A program made the translations under genes and the position numbers. From Anaerolineales bacterium (GTDB lineage: Bacteria > Chloroflexota > Anaerolineae > Anaerolineales > RBG-16-64-43), in contig JAFGKK010000038.1 in the NCBI GenBank assembly GCA_016928575.1, positions 1-40,646 of the forward strand: 40,646 nucleotides of DNA, written 5' to 3'. Under the pieces are notes generated by a model. The model was not told where the DNA came from. It saw only the letters and a program-made list of their open reading frames with translations, and made no database searches. Shown here in pieces: positions 5,304 through 13,160 of the stretch (the first letter of the stretch is position 1; each line of letters opens with the position of its first letter).

Positions 5304-5652
5304 AACACGACCATCGACTTTCGGCTATCGCCGGCCCCTCTCCTGTTGGGGAGGGACCGGTTTCCCAAAAACAGCAAGCCGTAATTGCCGCCGGCATTCC
5401 GAATTCACATGGACAATCTTCGGCAGTTACCAGAGGATTACCGCAAGATCGGCTGCGGCGCAGGTTGCCAGCCCGGTTAGTGCCTTCCCGGCCACGAGCC
5501 GCCCCCTGCCTACCGGCGACACCCTCAACATGTCCGGCTTCCGAGAGTTGCGATTGCATAAAACCGCTGACGGTAAAAAATTCCCCCTCCCCATGATGGG
5601 GAGGGGATAAAGGGGAGGGGTTTTGCGATTGCCGATGGTCGACGGTCGAATC
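5304..5652. other. Convergent intergenic region with GC hairpins
   Basis: No gene is seen between the lipoprotein (+) and permease (-) genes. The region holds a short CGACCATCGAC word at 5309-5319, a small CCTCTCC/GGGGAGG hairpin near 5338-5356, the perfect hairpin annotated at 5583-5607, and GATGGTCGACGGTCGA at 5636-5651, a fragment of the GATGGTC repeat family. Confidence 0.55.
5583..5607. repeat. GC hairpin between convergent genes
   Basis: CCCCTCCCCA and TGGGGAGGGG form a perfect 10-bp stem with a 3-base loop, placed between two convergent genes. It could block transcription from either side, but neither flank has a real U-tract. It also resembles the dispersed CCTCCCC/GGGGAGG hairpin family. 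A second GGGGAGGGG follows at 5612-5620. Confidence 0.55.
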
Positions 5653-7971
5653 CTACACGCCGTGCTTCCTCCGCATGATCCATCCCGCCAACGCGTAGAA
5701 AACCGCCGAGACGGCCGCCAGCACCGCGGCGGACTGCCACACCATCTGCGCCGGCGCTTCGCCCGCGATCGCGAGCCGGAACATGCGCATGATCACGGAA
5801 GTCGGAAACCAGGAGAGCAGATCCGTCAGCCAAGCCGGCCAGACTCCGACTAAGAAGGTTTCGAAGAGCAACGGGAGGACCACGAGAATGAAGAGCGGGC
5901 TGCCCCAGAACGCCGCGGCGGTCGGCGAATCCGCCAGCACGCCGACCAGCGTTCCGACCGAGACCACGAACAGCGCACCGAGGAACAGGGTCAACGCCAG
6001 AACGTCCCAGTGGACGATCTGCTTAAGGTTCATCAGCGCGATCACGATCCCGACAAACAGGCCGTAGGTCATCCCGGCGAGCAGCTTGCCGACCAAGATC
6101 TGCACGTACCCTGCGGGGGAGACCCTGAGGATGTCCATCGTGCGCGATTCCTTCTCCTCCACGAAAAGCAGCGGCACGATCGCGAATCCGACCACCGCCA
6201 GCATCAGGATCTGGGTGAGCAGGTTGATCAGCGGCCGCCCTGAGGAATCAGCCGACGGATACAAACCCTCCTCGGCCATGGTGATCTTCACATCGGTGGA
6301 TGCGGCAAGGCTGAGTTGTTCGGAAAAATGGACGGCATCCTGCGCGGTTTTTTCCGGATCCGCCCAGTGCGCGGCGTAGGCTTCGAGCCGGATCTCGGCC
6401 CGGCTTTGCACAAGCGCGTCGAAATCAGCCGGGAGCACGAACCCGATCCAAATGCCGGTGGCCTCCACAACCCGCATTTCCATATCCTCGCGCGATGCCG
6501 CCGCCACCAGCCGGCCGTCGATCTCCCCGACCGCCTCTCGGAAAGCGGCCGATTTTCCCTCGTCGAAGACGACCGCCGACGGCGGGCTGCCCCGGTTGAT
6601 CAGCGCCGGCAACAGGCTCCCGTTGACCGCCAGGAACGCCGTACCGATCATCACCGAAAAGATGAGCCGGTTGCGGAATGCTTCGCGCACGTCCTTGAGC
6701 GCGATCGCCGCCGTGATCCGCAGAGCAGCGCGTCCGCAGGAAGATTCCGGCGCATCGTTCTTCGTCCCGGAATCTTCCTGCGGAGTCGTGCGCGCCGGCG
6801 GGCGGAATGCTTCCTCCGGCTGTACTTGTGCGGGGGGAACGCCGTTCTTTTTCCTGAGCTTGGATTCGTCCGCCCGATCCCTCCGCCGCAACAGCCAGGA
6901 GACGACCGCAAGCTCGATTCCCGTGCAAACGATAACCCAGCCCAGCCCCAGCAGGGGCGCGCCGAGCGTGATCGGCTGGGCGAATACGTATCGCATCGCG
7001 AGATACGCCGTGACGGAGGGGATAACGGGCAGCACGCGCATGACCGCGTCGGGGATCAACTCGCGCAGCAGGTAGAGGATGACCGGCATGAACAGCGGCA
7101 GGATGATCAGCCAGGCCCAGACGGCGAATTGGGCCCGGGATTCCATCGCGGTTCCGAGGATCAGCCCCATCGACACGCAAAATATCGCATACACCGCCAA
7201 AATAACCAGAAACAGCCCCCAATGGACGATCAGGCTGTGGTTGACGATCACCGCCAGCGCAGCCACCGTGCCGGAGTAGAACAAGCCGGCCAGCAGCTTC
7301 CCCGCCGCTATCTGGGTGGCGCTCGCCGGAGAGACAAGCAGCACGTCGAGCGTGCGAGCCTGCTTCTCGTCAAACATCAGGTGCGGCACCAGGCTGATCC
7401 CGATCATCGTCAGCGAAAAGATCAGCGCCATCGCGGCCTGGGTTCCGGCGCCCTCGTCGTCCACCGGCCCATAGACGACGCTTTTGTCGATCGCGATGGA
7501 TACGCCCGTACCCCAAACGGCGGCGATCGCTTCTTCCACTTCGGCCTTCAGCCCGGCGACCTCTTCCCCGCTCAGCCAGTAGGCGACGATGCCGCGCAGG
7601 GGCGGCGCGTCGCCCCCCGCCGCGATGTCGTCGAAGCCGGCCGGGATCACCAGGCCGAGCTCCGGGCGATCGCCCAGCGCCAGACGGCGCTTCATCTCCT
7701 CTTCGGAGGGAAAATCCGATCTCACCTCCAACCCCGAAGCTTCTTCCAGGCGGCCGGTGTACGCGGAGTTGCCGGCATCATAGATGAAAACGGAGATCGG
7801 ATTTTTGCCGGCGGACAGCGAGGGAAGCGCTTTGTAGAAGAGGATGAGGAACGCGACCGAGAAGAACAGCACCAGGATGTTCCTGTTCTTAATTCCCTGG
7901 ACGATGTCCTTCCGGGCCAGCACGCCGACGACCCGCAGATATTCCAGAATATTTTTCATCGCCGCAACCAT
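5653..7971 (-). CDS. ABC exporter permease: two ABC-2 permease units fused in one chain
   Basis: This 772-residue protein consists of two homologous halves, each with an N-terminal membrane anchor, a large extracytoplasmic loop and a block of membrane helices. The same signature appears in both halves: DEKQARTLDVLLVSPAS...GKLLAG and EEKESRTMDILRVSPAG...GKLLAG. It resembles NatB/ABC2_membrane_3 exporters, which normally have one unit of about 380-400 residues per gene; here the dimer appears to be encoded as one polypeptide. The halves are joined by a hydrophilic linker (roughly residues 365-420) that contains a DNA hairpin (6734-6783). AAGGG lies six bases before the ATG at 7971. The ATPase gene is immediately upstream (33 bases), so the two should form one exporter. 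The substrate is unknown. Confidence 0.88.
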   Translation of the reverse strand: MVAAMKNILEYLRVVGVLARKDIVQGIKNRNILVLFFSVAFLILFYKALPSLSAGKNPISVFIYDAGNSAYTGRLEEASGLEVRSDFPSEEEMKRRLALGDRPELGLVIPAGFDDIAAGGDAPPLRGIVAYWLSGEEVAGLKAEVEEAIAAVWGTGVSIAIDKSVVYGPVDDEGAGTQAAMALIFSLTMIGISLVPHLMFDEKQARTLDVLLVSPASATQIAAGKLLAGLFYSGTVAALAVIVNHSLIVHWGLFLVILAVYAIFCVSMGLILGTAMESRAQFAVWAWLIILPLFMPVILYLLRELIPDAVMRVLPVIPSVTAYLAMRYVFAQPITLGAPLLGLGWVIVCTGIELAVVSWLLRRRDRADESKLRKKNGVPPAQVQPEEAFRPPARTTPQEDSGTKNDAPESSCGRAALRITAAIALKDVREAFRNRLIFSVMIGTAFLAVNGSLLPALINRGSPPSAVVFDEGKSAAFREAVGEIDGRLVAAASREDMEMRVVEATGIWIGFVLPADFDALVQSRAEIRLEAYAAHWADPEKTAQDAVHFSEQLSLAASTDVKITMAEEGLYPSADSSGRPLINLLTQILMLAVVGFAIVPLLFVEEKESRTMDILRVSPAGYVQILVGKLLAGMTYGLFVGIVIALMNLKQIVHWDVLALTLFLGALFVVSVGTLVGVLADSPTAAAFWGSPLFILVVLPLLFETFLVGVWPAWLTDLLSWFPTSVIMRMFRLAIAGEAPAQMVWQSAAVLAAVSAVFYALAGWIMRRKHGV
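6734..6783. repeat. 17-bp perfect inverted repeat inside the permease linker
   Basis: CCGCAGGAAGATTCCGG (6734-6750) is perfectly reverse-complementary to 6767-6783, around a 16-base loop. It is translated in the minus frame as residues about 397-413 (PQEDSGTKNDAPESSCG), exactly between the two permease halves. It looks like a former intergenic hairpin now read through as a linker. Confidence 0.9.
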
Positions 7972-8004
7972 GATACCCTTTCGATTTGTGAAAAGAAAAC
8001 ACTA

Positions 8005-8742
8005 TTACTGCGGTTCCACGGGCATCGGGGATCCGGTGAGTTTGAGGAATACGTCCTCCAAGGTCCCCTGCGGCCCGCCATGCGCGGCTTTAAGGGCGGC
8101 CGGCGCATCCATGGCGACGATCCGCCCGCGGTCGAGGATCGCCACCCGCGCGCAGAGCCGGTCGGCCTCCTCCATGTAGTGTGTGGTGAGGAAGACCGTC
8201 GTGCCGCTCCGGGCCAGGCCGGCGATAATCGAGCGGACGTCGCGCGCCACAGCGGGATCCAGCCCGCGGGTCGGCTCGTCGAGGAAGAGCACTTGCGGAC
8301 GGGGGATCAGCGCCCGCGCGATCAGCAGACGCTGTTTCATACCGTTGGAAAAGCGCTTGATCGGCTCACACGCCCGCTCCGCCAGCCCCACCTGCTCCAG
8401 CACCTGCGCGACCCGCTTGCGGGAAGCGCCGTACAGGTCGGCGATGAAGTGCAGGTTTTCGATCGCGGACATCCGCTCGTAGAGGTTCTGGTATTCGAAG
8501 ACGACGCCGATCCGCCGCTTGAGCTCCGCCCGTTCGGTGACCGCGTCGTATCCGGCCACCTTCGCGCTCCCGGAGGTCGGCCGCAGTTGGCCGGTGAGGA
8601 TCCGGATGGTGGTCGTCTTGCCCGCGCCGTTGGGCCCGAGGAAGCCGAAGAGCTCGCCCGCCGCGGCGGAGAACGTGATCCGGTCGACCGCTTTCACGGT
8701 TCCGAAATCCCTGCTCAGTTCGTGCGTTTCGATGGCGTTCAT
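8005..8742 (-). CDS. ABC transporter ATP-binding protein (exporter ATPase)
   Basis: The 245-residue ATPase has a complete set of motifs: Walker A GPNGAGKT (36-43), Q-loop region FEYQNLY, signature FSNGM (131-135, a common variant of LSGGQ in NatA/CcmA-like ATPases), Walker B VLFLDEPTRGLDP (151-163) and the H-loop TTHYMEEADRL. It belongs to the drug/Na+ exporter type that pairs with ABC-2 permeases. The fused permease follows 33 bases downstream on the same strand. Upstream, between this gene and the small membrane protein gene, lies an array of GC hairpins that starts 13 bases before its ATG. It should energise export through the fused permease. Confidence 0.93.
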   Translation of the reverse strand: MNAIETHELSRDFGTVKAVDRITFSAAAGELFGFLGPNGAGKTTTIRILTGQLRPTSGSAKVAGYDAVTERAELKRRIGVVFEYQNLYERMSAIENLHFIADLYGASRKRVAQVLEQVGLAERACEPIKRFSNGMKQRLLIARALIPRPQVLFLDEPTRGLDPAVARDVRSIIAGLARSGTTVFLTTHYMEEADRLCARVAILDRGRIVAMDAPAALKAAHGGPQGTLEDVFLKLTGSPMPVEPQ

Positions 8743-8754
8743 GATTTTCTCCTT

Positions 8755-8988
8755 CCCCCTCCTCTATCCTCCCCCGTTTAGAAAACCACTAAACGGGGGA
8801 GGATTCTGCTTTTGTCCTCCCCCGTCAGCTTGCTTGTGGGGGAGGCTTCAGTTGTCTTCCTCCCCCGTCAGCTTGCTTGTGGGGGAGGCTTCGGGTTTCT
8901 TCCTCCCCCGTCAGCTCTCTTGCGGGGGAGGCTTCGGTTGTCTTCCTCCCCCGTCAGCCAAGCTGACGGGGGAGGGAAGGGAGGGGGC
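8755..8988. repeat. Array of five GC hairpins with 43-bp period
   Basis: The first unit, TCCTCCCCCGTTTAG/CTAAACGGGGGAGGA (8767-8781, 8789-8803), is a perfect 15-bp hairpin. Four further units begin at 8816, 8859, 8902 and 8945, exactly 43 bases apart, each with CCTCCCCC...GGGGGAGG arms and often GTCAGC inside. The last is a perfect 14-bp hairpin (8945-8958/8962-8975). The leading 62 bases (8755-8816) are identical to 9331-9392. The array sits between the start of the ATPase gene and the stop of the small membrane protein gene. Internal sequences are too similar to be CRISPR spacers. Confidence 0.9.
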
Positions 8989-8989
8989 A

Positions 8990-9313
8990 TCACCGTGCAA
9001 TCAACTCGAAGAGGATGATCATGCCGACCAGAACCGCCACCCCGCCGATCGCCGCGATCACGTAGATCCACCGCCTGCCGGGGGTTTCAGCGGTTTCCAT
9101 TTCCGCGCCCATGCGGCTGACGCTCATGGCGATCCCGATCACGACGCCGATCCCCGCCCCGATGGTGATGCCCAGGGCGAGATTCCCCAAAGCGAGCCCC
9201 AGAGCGACACCCGCCCCCGTGCCGACGGGGATCCAGACGGCGCTATTCGCCGCGCGCCGGTTTTCCTGCATCTCGTTCCGTGCCTGCTTGTTCGAATTCG
9301 GTTCGTAGGCCAT
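8990..9313 (-). CDS. Small glycine-rich two-helix membrane protein
   Basis: The predicted protein has 107 residues. A polar Asn/Gln/Arg-rich N terminus (about 26 residues) is followed by a long glycine-zipper-like helix region with repeated GxGxGxxxGxxxGN and GxxxGIG spacing (about 29-65), then a second hydrophobic helix (about 83-105). ATG at 9313 is preceded by AGGAGAAACGAAG. No family was recognised with certainty. Hairpin arrays flank it on both sides (8755-8988 and 9331-9465), and it lies between a LytTR-type regulator and an ABC exporter on the same strand. It may therefore be an accessory or immunity-type membrane protein of that exporter; this is inference only. Confidence 0.7.
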   Translation of the reverse strand: MAYEPNSNKQARNEMQENRRAANSAVWIPVGTGAGVALGLALGNLALGITIGAGIGVVIGIAMSVSRMGAEMETAETPGRRWIYVIAAIGGVAVLVGMIILFELIAR

Positions 9314-9330
9314 CTTCGTTTCTCCTATTC

Positions 9331-9465
9331 CCCCCTCCTCTATCCTCCCCCGTTTAGAAAACCACTAAACGGGGGAGGATTCTGCTTTTGTCTACCCCCG
9401 TCTGTCTTCTTGCGAGGGAGGCTTCGGGTTTCTTCCTCCCCCATTAGCTGCGCTAATGGGGGAGG
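9331..9465. repeat. Second GC hairpin array, three units, 43-bp period
   Basis: Bases 9331-9392 repeat 8755-8816 exactly, including the perfect 15-bp hairpin (9343-9357/9365-9379). A degraded unit starts at 9392. A further perfect hairpin with arms CCTCCCCCATTAGC and GCTAATGGGGGAGG lies at 9435-9448/9452-9465. The 43-base spacing is kept between the second and third units. Compensatory changes (GTTTAG/CTAAAC, GTCAGC/GCTGAC, ATTAGC/GCTAAT) keep the stems paired. Confidence 0.9.
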
Positions 9466-9522
9466 AGAGAGGAGGAGGCAATCCGCGATTTCAATATAGA
9501 AATCTTCCCAATAACCCGCAAC

Positions 9523-9544
9523 AAAAAAGCGCCCGAAGGCGCTT
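9523..9544 (-). terminator. Intrinsic terminator of the ABC-LytTR gene
   Basis: On the minus strand AAGCGCC-TTCG-GGCGCTT (stem 9527-9544) is followed by a run of T. This is a textbook rho-independent terminator about 45 bases after the stop codon of the regulator gene. It separates that gene from the downstream membrane protein and exporter genes. Confidence 0.9.
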
Positions 9545-9588
9545 GGGAGAGGTTGAATGAAGCAAAACAGGTGATGAATGGAACGCGG

Positions 9589-10578
9589 TTAATAGCCGAA
9601 AAAGGCCTTGAGTTCCGCGGCCGCGGACTTGCTCAGCGGGATTTTCGTCCCCGCGGCATCGTCCAGGCGGATGCTGTAACTGTTGCGGGTGTAGGGAATC
9701 ACTTCCTTGACGTGCTGCAGATTCACCAGGATGCTGCGGTGGGCCCGGAAGAAGCCGCTGCGAGATAGTTTGTTTTCCAGATCGGCCAGCGTGTACTGCG
9801 TCGGCAACCGTCCCTCGGGGGTGACGAGGGAAATCCGGCCTTCGCCAGCGTCGGCATAGAGGATTTCGACGGGATTGAGCAGGACGACTTTATCTTCAAG
9901 TTTTACCGGCAGTTTGAAGGCCCGGCGTCCGGCATCCTCCGATTCGAACTTGGTTTCCAGCAGGCGCCCCTGTTGGAGGTTATAGATCCGGAAGCATAGC
10001 GGTGCCAGCCGGGCGGACGTACTCGACAGCAGCAGGACGGCGGTTCCGCTCTCCGCCTCAGCCCGGACCAAACTTTCCAGGAGCATGATCGTGGCTTCAT
10101 CGCAGCGGGCAAAGAGTTCCTCAAGGACCAGCGCCTTCGGCCGGTGAAGGACGGCGCGCCCGAAGGCCAGCCGACGCTGTAAACCCGGCGGCAATTTTCC
10201 GGCGGATACCGATTCCTGGTCCGCCAGCCCGACCTGCGCCAGGACCTCATCGATCCTGGCTTTCGGCGTTCCGAATAAATCCGCTTGAAATTCCAGATTG
10301 GCGCGCGCGGAAAGGTTTTTATACAGCGCGTCTTCGGTGAACACGATTCCCGAGAGGCGGCTGAACCGCTCCCGGGACTGCGCGGGGTCCGCTCCGCCGA
10401 GCCTGACCGTGCCGAGCGTCGGGCGGATGCGGCCGATCAGCAGGGCGAACAACGCGTCGCGGCCGCTGTCCTCGAGCCCGAACACGCCCGCCGTTTCGCC
10501 CGCGCCGACGGCGAGCTCGGGGATGTCGAGGACGGTCTTGCCGCCGAGGACCTTCTGGACGTTGCGGAGCTCGATCAT
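9589..10578 (-). CDS. Degenerate ABC-ATPase domain fused to a LytTR DNA-binding domain
   Basis: The predicted protein has 329 residues. Residues 1-215 have the fold pattern of an ABC ATPase, but every catalytic motif is altered: Walker A reads GLEDSGRD (34-41, Lys replaced by Arg), the Q-loop region reads VFTEDALY, the signature reads LPPGLQRR, Walker B reads ALVLEELFAR and the H-loop His is replaced (LLLSSTSARL). Residues about 225-329 are a LytTR domain (VEILYADAGEGRISLVT, FFRAHRSILVNLQHVKEV, YSIRLDD). It is thus probably a DNA-binding regulator using a dead ABC domain as sensor or dimerisation module, plausibly controlling the exporter genes downstream. The start at 10578 is where ABC homology begins; upstream frame is repeat DNA. 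A TACAAT -10-like hexamer lies only about six bases before the ATG, so a near-leaderless transcript is possible. Confidence 0.85.
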   Translation of the reverse strand: MIELRNVQKVLGGKTVLDIPELAVGAGETAGVFGLEDSGRDALFALLIGRIRPTLGTVRLGGADPAQSRERFSRLSGIVFTEDALYKNLSARANLEFQADLFGTPKARIDEVLAQVGLADQESVSAGKLPPGLQRRLAFGRAVLHRPKALVLEELFARCDEATIMLLESLVRAEAESGTAVLLLSSTSARLAPLCFRIYNLQQGRLLETKFESEDAGRRAFKLPVKLEDKVVLLNPVEILYADAGEGRISLVTPEGRLPTQYTLADLENKLSRSGFFRAHRSILVNLQHVKEVIPYTRNSYSIRLDDAAGTKIPLSKSAAAELKAFFGY

Positions 10579-10609
10579 CCCACCATTGTACCCATATCCG
10601 ACGAAGGCG

Positions 10610-10875
10610 AGATCCAACCATCGACCATGGACGATGGACCATGGCCGTTTGAAGACCCGATCATCGACAATCGACCATCGCCGCTGATCGTCCGAGTTCC
10701 TCATATCGTGTCCGAATTTTTTTTCGCGGCCGCGGGCATAGGAAGCATTTCAACAATTGACGACGGTCGATGGTCGATGCCTGCCCACAAATGTCTTTGT
10801 CGGGGGGGGGGCCATCGTCTATCGTCGGTTTTCCGATGGTCTATCGTCTATGGTCGGTCGTGCGATGGTCCAGAG
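10610..10875. repeat. Long copy A of the GATGGTC dispersed repeat
   Basis: Overlapping GACCATC/GATGGTC words flank a core (about 10680-10745) containing GAGTTCCTCATATCGTGTCC, a T-run and CGCGGCCGCGGGCAT. The same core stands at about 22938-23000, followed in both places by GATGGTCGATGCCTGCCC, CTTTGTCGG and CTATGGTCGGTC. The copies differ by scattered substitutions, so they are not recent. The repeat fills the gap between the ABC-LytTR gene and the RPH fragment. Confidence 0.8.
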
Positions 10876-10885
10876 AGCGGGAAGT

Positions 10886-11098
10886 CCAAGAGGGATCGGT
10901 CCCCGGGCAAACGAGGATATCGCCCGTCTGGTGGTTCGCCTGCCGCGGATCCCACACCATGCTCACCCGGTCCTCGCCCCTCGGCCAAACCGGGCCGCCG
11001 AGGATGCGCTTGTCGGATCCGCCGGCGGCGCTTATGCCTTCATAGAAGGCCCGGCCGTCGCTCAGGAACAGGCGCGGGATCTGGTGCCGGCGGAAGGT
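10886..11098 (-). pseudogene. Fragment of a rifampin-phosphotransferase/PEP-synthase-like gene
   Basis: Read on the minus strand this piece encodes QIPRLFLSDGRAFYEGI, then ILGGPVWPRGEDRVSMVWDP, then GDILVCPGTDPSWT. It aligns over about 70 residues with residues about 771-841 of the intact protein encoded at 23136-25871 (QIPRLLLSDGRAFYEGI ... GEILVCPGTDPSWT). It stops before the catalytic His segment and is joined directly to repeat copy A. It has no start, no N-terminal domains and several substitutions at conserved glycines, so it is a remnant. The intact gene has the same repeat beyond its 3' end, which suggests co-duplication followed by deletion. Confidence 0.85.
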
Positions 11099-11667
11099 GC
11101 GGACGGCGCGTTTCGGAAGGAATGGATCGGAAGTGGAATACCCGCCGCCATCCAATAAACTTCTTCCGCCCGGGCCGCCAGCCGCTGGTTGGCCCGCCCC
11201 AGCAGGTCGCGGTACAGCCGTCCCGCCGGGTAGGGCGGGACAAGCCCCGATCCAACTTCGTTGGTGACCACGATCCAATCTGCGGATCCGTTTTCGACGA
11301 CGCGCAGCAAACCGTTTAGTTCAGACTCCACCCGCCCTTCCGCGGCGGATTCGTCCAGCGGATCCTCGTTTTCCGTTCCCGCCAGCATCGCGTTGCTCAC
11401 CAGCAGGGTGATGCAATCCAGAACGATCACATCGGCCTGCGGAGGATCCTTCGTAAAAACTTCCGCGACGCCGCGCGGGATCTCGAGCGTCGTCCACCCC
11501 GCCGGGCGCTCGCTCCGATGCCGCCGGATCCGCGCGCGCATGTCGTCGTCGCCGGCTTCGGCGGTGGCCACGTATACAACCCGCCCGCCGCGTTCCTCCG
11601 CCAGCCGCCGGGCATGGGCGCTCTTTCCGCTGCGCGCGCCTCCCAGGATAAGGGTCAGCTTTCCCAT
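11062..11667 (-). CDS. cobU: Adenosylcobinamide kinase / guanylyltransferase
   Basis: The 201-residue enzyme phosphorylates adenosylcobinamide and transfers GMP to give adenosylcobinamide-GDP. Seen: Walker A GGARSGKS near the start, VYVATAEAGDDDM, VLDCITLLVSN and VTNEVGSGLVPPYPAGRLYRDLLG, all CobU hallmarks. The ATG at 11667 overlaps the end of cobQ by 13 bases; the frame extends upstream of it but without CobU sequence. The family normally ends near GIPLPI; here about 18 further residues (FRNAPSAPSAGTRS...) are read out of frame from the RPH pseudogene fragment before a stop. The core is intact, so the enzyme is probably active. It is the last gene of the cobalamin operon. Confidence 0.93.
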   Translation of the reverse strand: MGKLTLILGGARSGKSAHARRLAEERGGRVVYVATAEAGDDDMRARIRRHRSERPAGWTTLEIPRGVAEVFTKDPPQADVIVLDCITLLVSNAMLAGTENEDPLDESAAEGRVESELNGLLRVVENGSADWIVVTNEVGSGLVPPYPAGRLYRDLLGRANQRLAARAEEVYWMAAGIPLPIHSFRNAPSAPSAGTRSRACS

Positions 11668-13160
11668 AGGATCTTCTCCAGGCGTTCCATATCCAGCGCA
11701 TCCTCCACCGCATCGGCCAAGGCTTCCAAGCCTTGCTCGACGTTCGCGGACAGCGCGGACCCCGCTCCCCGCCAGCCCAGGCTGCGCAGCCAGCCGCGGC
11801 GGAAGCGCGGATTGCCGAACAAGCCGTGCGGAGAGCAGCCCCAAATGCGCCCTTGCGGATCGGCCGCTCCGGCCGGAATGCGGACAGCCGCGCCGTTCCT
11901 CTCCGTGATCGTCAGCCAGACGCCCTCCGCGGCGGCGGTTTCTCCGGAGTGTATCTCGTAGCCCCCCAGCCGTTCACCCGCGACCGACTGCAGCCATCCG
12001 GGGCCGGAAGCTGCTTGCGCCCGGGATTGAAACGTCGCTTTCCCGCCGGTAAAAACCGTTTCCGCCGGCAACAATCCCAAGCCCGCCGCCTCCTCCGCGC
12101 TCGATTCCATATGCGCGGGATCGCGGATAATCCGGCCAAGCATTTGGTATCCACCGCAGATCCCGGCGACCGCCCCGCCGTTTGCGGCGAACCGGACAAC
12201 GGCCTCGGCCAGGCCGCTCCGGCGCATCCAGGCCAGGTCGGCGATCGTGCTCTTCGTCCCCGGAAGGATGACGGCCCGCGGGTTTCCGAATTCCGCGGCG
12301 GTTTTCACATACCGCAAGCGCACGCCCGCTTCGGCGCGCAGCGGATCGAACTCGTCGAAGTTGGCGATGCGCGGAAAGGCGATCAGGGCGATCTCGACGC
12401 ATTCCGCGCCGCCCGGCGAGCCTCCGCGGTCCGTCTCCACCGCAACGGCGTCCTCCTCCGGAAGCGAAAGCGCGGGCAGAAAGGGGACGACGCCGAGGAC
12501 CGGAATGCCTCCCCGCTCCTCCAGAACGCGGACACCCCCGTCGAACAGAGAACGGTCGCCGCGGAACTTGTTGACCAGCAGACCTTTCACCAGCGCGCGA
12601 TCTTCCGGTTCGAGAAGCCACAACGTACCCAGGAGTTGGGCGAAGATTCCGCCCCGGTCGATGTCGCCGGCAAGCAGGACGGGGGAGCGGGCGTAGCGGG
12701 CGACGGCCATATTGACGATGTCGCCTTCCCGCAGGTTCAATTCGGCCGGGCTGCCGGCTCCCTCGATGACGACCAGCTCGAAGGATTCGCGCAGCCGATC
12801 CAAAGCGGCGCGGACGGTCTCCCACAAGATCAGTTTTTCCCGATAGTACTCCTTCGCGGCGAGCGTCCGCCACGGCCTGCCCATCCGGACGATTTGGGAA
12901 CGCGCATCCGCCTCCGGCTTGATCAAGACAGGATTCATATCCGTAGCAGGAGGCAGGCCGGCGGCCGCGGCCTGCAGCGCCTGGGCGCGTCCGATCTCGC
13001 CCCCGTCGGCGCAGACGGCCGCGTTGTTCGACATATTCTGAGCCTTGAACGGCGCAACCCGAACCCCGCGGCGGGCGTAGATGCGGCATAGCGCGGCGGA
13101 AAGCAGGCTCTTCCCGACCGAGGAGCCGGCCCCCTGCAGCATGAGCGTTTTAGCAGCCAT
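11655..13160 (-). CDS. cobQ: Cobyric acid synthase (glutamine-hydrolysing)
   Basis: The 501-residue enzyme amidates four side chains of adenosylcobyrinic acid a,c-diamide using glutamine and ATP. The N-terminal dethiobiotin-synthetase-like domain shows MLQGAGSSVGKS (7-18), APFKAQNMSNN (36-46) and VIEGAGSPAELNL. The C-terminal class I glutaminase domain has the nucleophile Cys335 in GICGGYQMLG and His404 in YEIHSGE. The length is normal for CobQ. It overlaps cobC by 11 bases and cobU by 13, so translation is probably coupled. Confidence 0.96.
   Translation of the reverse strand: MAAKTLMLQGAGSSVGKSLLSAALCRIYARRGVRVAPFKAQNMSNNAAVCADGGEIGRAQALQAAAAGLPPATDMNPVLIKPEADARSQIVRMGRPWRTLAAKEYYREKLILWETVRAALDRLRESFELVVIEGAGSPAELNLREGDIVNMAVARYARSPVLLAGDIDRGGIFAQLLGTLWLLEPEDRALVKGLLVNKFRGDRSLFDGGVRVLEERGGIPVLGVVPFLPALSLPEEDAVAVETDRGGSPGGAECVEIALIAFPRIANFDEFDPLRAEAGVRLRYVKTAAEFGNPRAVILPGTKSTIADLAWMRRSGLAEAVVRFAANGGAVAGICGGYQMLGRIIRDPAHMESSAEEAAGLGLLPAETVFTGGKATFQSRAQAASGPGWLQSVAGERLGGYEIHSGETAAAEGVWLTITERNGAAVRIPAGAADPQGRIWGCSPHGLFGNPRFRRGWLRSLGWRGAGSALSANVEQGLEALADAVEDALDMERLEKILWES

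Follow-up and report, generated by a model that had tools for sequence, protein, structure and literature searches.

Palindromic elements at operon junctions of an Anaerolineales genome, with DUF559 nuclease genes as their putative partner

Known families of bacterial repeats and small mobile elements

REP/BIME elements, whose partner is RAYT, are short, dispersed extragenic palindromes that occur in arrays, lie close to stop codons and have a small nuclease gene between copies. The family reported here resembles them in these respects and differs in lacking the GTAG/CGTC tag, in its long outer arms, and in having DUF559 instead of a Y1 tyrosine transposase as its putative partner. BOX elements of Streptococcus pneumoniae consist of terminal modules around a variable number of inner units of about 45 bp. 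This architecture recurs in the present family, although the two are unrelated in sequence and host, and to our knowledge no link between BOX elements and DUF559 is known. MITEs and small mobile sequences such as Correia, RUP and CIR have inverted-repeat ends, are intergenic and are possibly tied to a coding element. The present family shares the first two traits, terminal inverted repeats included, and may share the third; no target-site duplication was found for it, and its candidate autonomous form carries DUF559. For CIR elements, a review states that the mechanism of mobility needs more information (PMC2229807). DUF559 is a concrete candidate for the means by which untagged palindromic repeats and small mobile sequences spread in bacteria.

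DUF559 proteins are EDxHD/Vsr-like nucleases of the PD-(D/E)XK type. EDxHD proteins have been called a homing endonuclease family (PMC9403480), and EDxHD/DUF559 proteins have been described as Vsr-like; for one of them, from Caulobacter, a function as a Vsr-type repair enzyme has been suggested (PMC12907096). The genes considered here belong to the same protein family and likewise stand free between conserved genes, but they are bracketed by palindromes and are associated with neither intron nor intein. No published link of DUF559 or Vsr with REPs or palindromes was found in the available text of open papers.

Two hairpin arrays in an ABC transporter gene run

The window is a stretch of 40,646 nucleotides (positions 1 to 40,646 of contig JAFGKK010000038.1, assembly GCA_016928575.1) from an Anaerolineales bacterium. 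On its minus strand, the order in gene direction is a LytTR/ABC fusion gene, a terminator, array 2, a gene for a 107-aa protein, array 1, an ABC ATPase gene and an ABC-2 permease gene (Table 1).

Table 1. Coordinates of the arrays and of neighbouring features in the window
Feature	Position	Strand	Remarks
ABC-2 type permease gene	5653..7971	-	same gene run as ABC ATPase
ABC transporter ATPase gene	8005..8742	-	downstream of array 1
Array 1	8755..8988	.	five hairpins enclosed by outer arms CCCCCTCCTCTAT and GAAGGGAGGGGGC; between 107-aa gene and ABC ATPase
Array 1, first hairpin	8766..8804	.	perfect stem of 16 bp, loop of 7 nt
Array 1, hairpin units (n=4, 43-bp period)	8816..8975	.	inner stem imperfect at 8816, 8859 and 8902, perfect at 8945
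107-aa gene	8990..9313	-	membrane-protein-like by sequence, no Pfam match; between both arrays
Array 2	9331..9479	.	62-base start as in array 1, degenerate unit 9392, perfect unit 9435-9465, outer arm to 9479
Promoter-like TTGCGG-17-TATATT	9493..9521	-	read by eye, weak; promoter scan reports none
Intrinsic terminator-like hairpin and T tract	9527..9544	-	behind LytTR gene, upstream of array 2
ABC ATPase/LytTR fusion protein gene	9589..10704	-	upstream of array 2, context

Both arrays described in the first-pass annotation are real, and the 43-bp register was recovered at 8816, 8859, 8902 and 8945. Starting from 8755 and 9331, respectively, 62 bases are exactly identical, as had been noted, and the preceding base differs. 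The hairpin at the start of each array (9342-9380 in array 2) is indeed perfect, with a stem of 16 bp. Four of the eight window hairpins have an imperfect inner stem: pairing extends over 8 bp in units 8816 and 8859 and over 9 bp in unit 8902, with mismatches beyond, and unit 9392 is degenerate. Units 8945 and 9435 are perfect, as is the first hairpin of each array. The lengths of the arrays are those of a draft MAG assembly.

Typical arrays and single copies of the family comprise a pyrimidine arm (e.g., CCCCCTCCTCTNT), one or more hairpins of the form CCTCCCCC...GGGGGAGG, and a closing arm that is the complement of the first (ANAGAGGAGGGGG). Because such arms lie outside the 43-bp units and enclose one or more hairpins, the window arrays represent two elements with extra inner hairpins. 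The 43-bp arrays may have arisen by local amplification of the inner hairpin, and arrays 1 and 2 may have a recent common origin.

The arrays end close to minus-strand start codons, as had been observed: array 1 lies 12 nt from the ATG of the ATPase gene and array 2 lies 17 nt from the start codon of the 107-aa gene. Their proposed role as 5' leaders stands in part. Array 2 is probably part of the 5' leader that precedes the 107-aa gene, because the terminator of the LytTR gene lies upstream of it, whereas array 1 is intercistronic and starts 1 nt past the TGA that ends the 107-aa gene. The arrays most likely affect the ABC operon in a secondary way at most, for example if hairpins in the leader or between cistrons changed stability or translation.

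The view that the arrays are neither terminators for these genes nor a CRISPR locus was confirmed. Within the arrays, terminator-scan matches fall on the plus strand only; a terminator was rejected because the stems are not followed by a U tract on the minus strand, which is the transcribed, coding strand here. Spacers are similar and stems vary, unlike the identical repeats and unique spacers of a CRISPR array. No Rfam match above gathering score was obtained in window positions 5500-13000 or in six loci, and an RNA regulator was rejected on the absence of an Rfam match together with the absence of a G-U bias.

Dispersal of the family

The 3.84-Mb genome to which the window belongs (G000) contains 45 occurrences of the hairpin pattern, compared with one for the reversed control, and G001, which alone among the listed genomes shares its genus, contains 25. 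With a covariance model derived from 26 copies, matches were obtained in 32 of 101 relatives, distributed very unevenly, with most in G000, G001 and G019. The family sits at dozens of unrelated gene junctions, and the arrays are not private leaders of this operon. Nor did the notion of leaders specific to the exporter ATPase and the membrane protein survive, since the family is scattered genome-wide and its position statistic favours stop codons (see below). The expected recurrence in syntenic leaders was likewise not borne out: G001 has no match to the 107-aa protein, and the closest G001 ABC locus carries no element. No usable synteny for the window operon was found.

Element-like 22-mers were read in Rhodospirillales, Deltaproteobacteria and others (34 stretches), and the DUF559 profile matches 1 of these 34 loci, L078, which is the G001 record. 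Outside Chloroflexota, Deltaproteobacteria MAGs (L060, L063, L074 and L077) contain elements that agree in both outer arm and inner hairpin, for which common descent and convergence are both possible. In open papers, the matches to CCTCCCCC are unrelated by title.

Position and turnover at gene junctions

The family is intergenic and enriched at stop codons. In G000 and G001 together, 55 elements are flanked by a gene on either side. Nine of them overlap called genes and were dropped; of the remaining 46, 17 lie 0-3 nt behind a stop codon. Under uniform placement in the same gaps 4.0 would be expected, and 17 was reached in 0 of 20,000 simulations. If the 12 nt before start codons are closed to insertion, the expectation rises to 8.8 and the observed value is still reached in 0 of 20,000. 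Genes were called with our own script, which had little training sequence for the other genomes. TGA, TAA and TAG are all used as adjacent stops, and several of these stops are common to G001; therefore, the element does not supply the stop codon. In tight junctions, its far end often abuts the ribosome-binding site. No common flank indicating a target motif or target-site duplication was found in 80 element ends, and orthologous sites are strongly diverged.

Elements at these junctions turn over between species. Seventeen gene ends were queried in G001 and 14 places were matched, two of which (to L042) are unassignable. Assigned by eye, the 12 junctions read hold the same family at 2, another palindromic repeat at 7 (including two GTAG-type REPs) and none at 3. 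One empty G001 junction spans 8 nt where the G000 genome has an 83-bp palindrome. When six elements of G000 were compared with G001 and G003, again by eye, the same family was present at none, and a different palindrome occupies four of the G001 junctions that could be aligned. Shared element positions also exist (L017/L097 and L014/L098).

Covariation of the stems

In 14 equal-length copies, all 25 two-sided changes fall in seven inner pairs, and 98.1% of cells are paired, which none of 500 shuffles reaches; these seven pairs are free in the search pattern, and the outer eight are invariant by construction of the 14-copy set. Several copies are perfect palindromes of 27-28 bp that differ in sequence. 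The earlier statement that the stems stay paired therefore finds strong support genome-wide, but not in the four window hairpins with an imperfect inner stem. Compensatory change had also been taken as selection on structure. The variation is indeed compensatory, but the excess of G-U over A-C expected from selection on RNA is absent, with 28 versus 26 in 82 oriented inner stems and, among whole units containing few mismatches (n=62), 44 versus 40. Because the transcribed orientation shows no such asymmetry, we read the palindromes as kept up or born at the DNA level.

DUF559 genes and their flanks

A DUF559 gene in G001 (contig C44) is bracketed by arrays of the window's own family. Its G000 counterpart is in two parts, one at an end of contig C41 and one at an end of C66, with arrays on both. 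Each of these two genomes has five DUF559 genes; palindromes lie beside 9 of the 10, and several of the ten have a matching pair from a palindrome family of their own. The Pfam DUF559 match lies above the curated cut-off (3.5e-30), and a relative with a solved structure is 3hrl, 'Endonuclease-Like Protein'. An alignment of 16 DUF559 proteins (one row, L207, in the wrong frame) has conserved D, E-x-D-G and H positions, and the protein from G001 C44 contains VEVDGDIH. As side observations, the CCCCTCTCCTGG palindrome brackets a DUF559 gene in G000, and none of the five DUF559 matches of that MAG (C41, C66, C101, C130 and C69) is more than about 210 bases away from a contig end, as though the flanking repeats broke the assembly.

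Flanks were compared by the best local alignment of upstream with downstream sequence at a score of at least 20, without regard to palindromes; the downstream flank was taken from the domain end because DUF559 frames run into palindromes. Some frames appear by eye to extend into the downstream palindrome, which then encodes the C-terminus. In a first Anaerolineales set, 16 of 25 DUF559 genes have matching flanks, compared with 2 of 109 control genes. This set contains the ten G000/G001 loci on which the hypothesis arose; they are absent from the second set, which was taken by rank with flanks unseen beforehand and gave 6/17 (p=6e-5). Named plasmid and chromid records gave 10/18 (p=1e-8). Matching pairs are lacking in 9/25, 11/17 and 8/18 DUF559 genes of the three sets. 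Usable loci numbered 25 of 39, 17 of 20 and 18 of 18; those excluded lay in longer frames, had no profile match or had less than 150 bp on one side. Genes closer than 600 bp to a DUF559 gene were left out of the controls. The second set depends on the threshold and on where the flank begins: from the domain end it gives 6/17 (at least 20) or 3/17 (at least 25), and from the stop codon 4/17 or 2/17, respectively. An earlier scoring version gave 16/28 against 3/126 controls, of which one was a DUF559 gene and one the window's 107-aa gene.

Clear palindromes on both sides were found in 11/25, 3/17 and 5/18 DUF559 genes versus 5/109 controls, with p=0.075 for the second set. The flank repeat of L211 does not look palindromic, so matching flanks are not always palindromes. 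Across Chloroflexota, Alphaproteobacteria, Deinococcus and Cyanobacteria, DUF559 genes are bracketed by matching repeats, mostly palindromic, far more often than other genes; this is an association, and the copies in these four phyla include testable ones in laboratory organisms that are harmless, e.g., Picosynechococcus PCC 7002. In an annotated 50-kb stretch of Deinococcus psychrotolerans, the DUF559 gene alone among 41 genes scores at least 20, and the only two CCTCCCC-type hairpins are its flanks. Of 44 genomes that contain the CCTCCCCC hairpin, 34 also have DUF559, compared with 18 of the 57 that lack the hairpin (p=7e-6, with kinship ignored among relatives that share descent). G052, G067 and G078 have at least four hairpins each and no DUF559; G052, with no DUF559 match, has 34 CCTCCCCC hairpins, some arrayed at a spacing of 162-180 bp.

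DUF559 genes also occur as cassettes within operons, where they break up conserved gene runs, a hint of mobility. The arrangements paaD-DUF559-paaZ and pnt alpha-DUF559-pnt each start 0 nt behind a stop codon, and sufB-DUF559-sufC was seen as well. In three Deinococcus species, DUF559 stands at three different places in hpa clusters. One strain of Sphingomonas parapaucimobilis has DUF559 genes inside both its suf and pnt operons on plasmids (L234 and L238).

Origin of the elements

We consider it somewhat probable (roughly 0.55) that each of the two window arrays is a copy of a REP/BIME-like palindromic element whose putative partner is DUF559 and not RAYT; the association is observed, and the partner would act by mobilising the element. 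In this scheme, the DUF559 nuclease would nick or cut the extruded palindrome. Cutting at or near such a structure is plausible, because EDxHD/DUF559 proteins have been described as a homing endonuclease family and as Vsr-like. It could disperse the DUF559 gene itself, along with gene-less palindromes, into operon junctions, where insertions would be tolerated only downstream of a stop codon and ahead of the ribosome-binding site that follows. DUF559 would thereby gain a role, and the filling of operon junctions with unrelated hairpins that resemble regulatory leaders would be explained. More tentatively, and at a little under even odds, DUF559/EDxHD nucleases may constitute a widespread, unnamed class of mobile element, with a nuclease gene between palindromes and many gene-less palindromes inserting behind operon stops. 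Such a class would account for many untagged G/C palindromic repeats that have no known means of spread.

The main alternative, which we judge rather unlikely, places the palindromes first: having spread otherwise, they would act as safe landing or recombination sites into which DUF559 inserts as a free-standing homing-type endonuclease. This would suit the hairpin-rich genomes from which DUF559 is missing, the several DUF559 genes that stand between two complete elements, and the designation of EDxHD as a homing endonuclease family (PMC9403480); a parallel is ISPpu9, which inserts in REPs according to one report (PMC8450116). It is at odds, however, with the finding that DUF559 copies have palindrome families of their own, and with D. 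psychrotolerans, in which the DUF559 gene has matching, often inverted, flanks and no other such palindrome within 50 kb.

It is also conceivable, if improbable, that functional RNA hairpins are selected whatever their sequence, behind stops (through 3'-end protection or effects on termination) or in leaders. The stop adjacency of 17 of 46 elements is compatible with this, as are the minus-strand RNA folds of the two arrays, which beat 200 of 200 dinucleotide shuffles (z -11.1 and -8.5), and the finding that a given junction can have a different hairpin in a sister species. A hairpin score of at least 9 was reached in G001 at 4/4 element junctions versus 4/13 others, a small comparison that is only suggestive, and REPs within 15 nt of stops lower translation in E. 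coli according to one study (PMC12306157). Oriented stems without a G-U excess argue against such selection, as do empty junctions such as the 8-nt G001 gap. A cis-regulatory leader dedicated to the ABC exporter operon would fit the location of the arrays at gene starts and of array 2 downstream of a terminator, but occurrence at dozens of unrelated junctions and the lack of a conserved locus make it highly improbable. Equally hard to credit is an ordinary REP element moved by the RAYT of this genome: the single Y1_Tnp (RAYT-like) gene is flanked by distinct hairpins, of GGCCGAGTCGGCC type, with no CCTCCCCC hairpin near it, and the GTAG/CGTC end tag is absent from this family. Untagged REP families also exist (PMC3733652).

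Other repeats and features

The GGCCGAGTCGGCC-type hairpins, at L044 1259-1284 and around 1897-1912, form a separate REP family. A second palindrome family, CCTCACCCC...CTCTCCTG, likewise lies behind stop codons; the loci concerned, for this family and for the CCCCTCTCCTGG palindrome mentioned above, are L025 2532-2597, L021, L011 and L185. At least four other short dispersed repeat families are common to the G000 genome and G001 or G003 (L121 1962-2018, 3678-3748 and 16303-16453; L122 342-440). Within the window, the fusion of an ABC ATPase domain to a LytTR DNA-binding domain is an unusual combination. Upstream of this gene, a 29-bp tandem unit (10809-10870) is a dispersed repeat with several G001 matches, and near the gene start an ACCATGG heptamer repeat (10613-10648) has short dispersed matches in G001.
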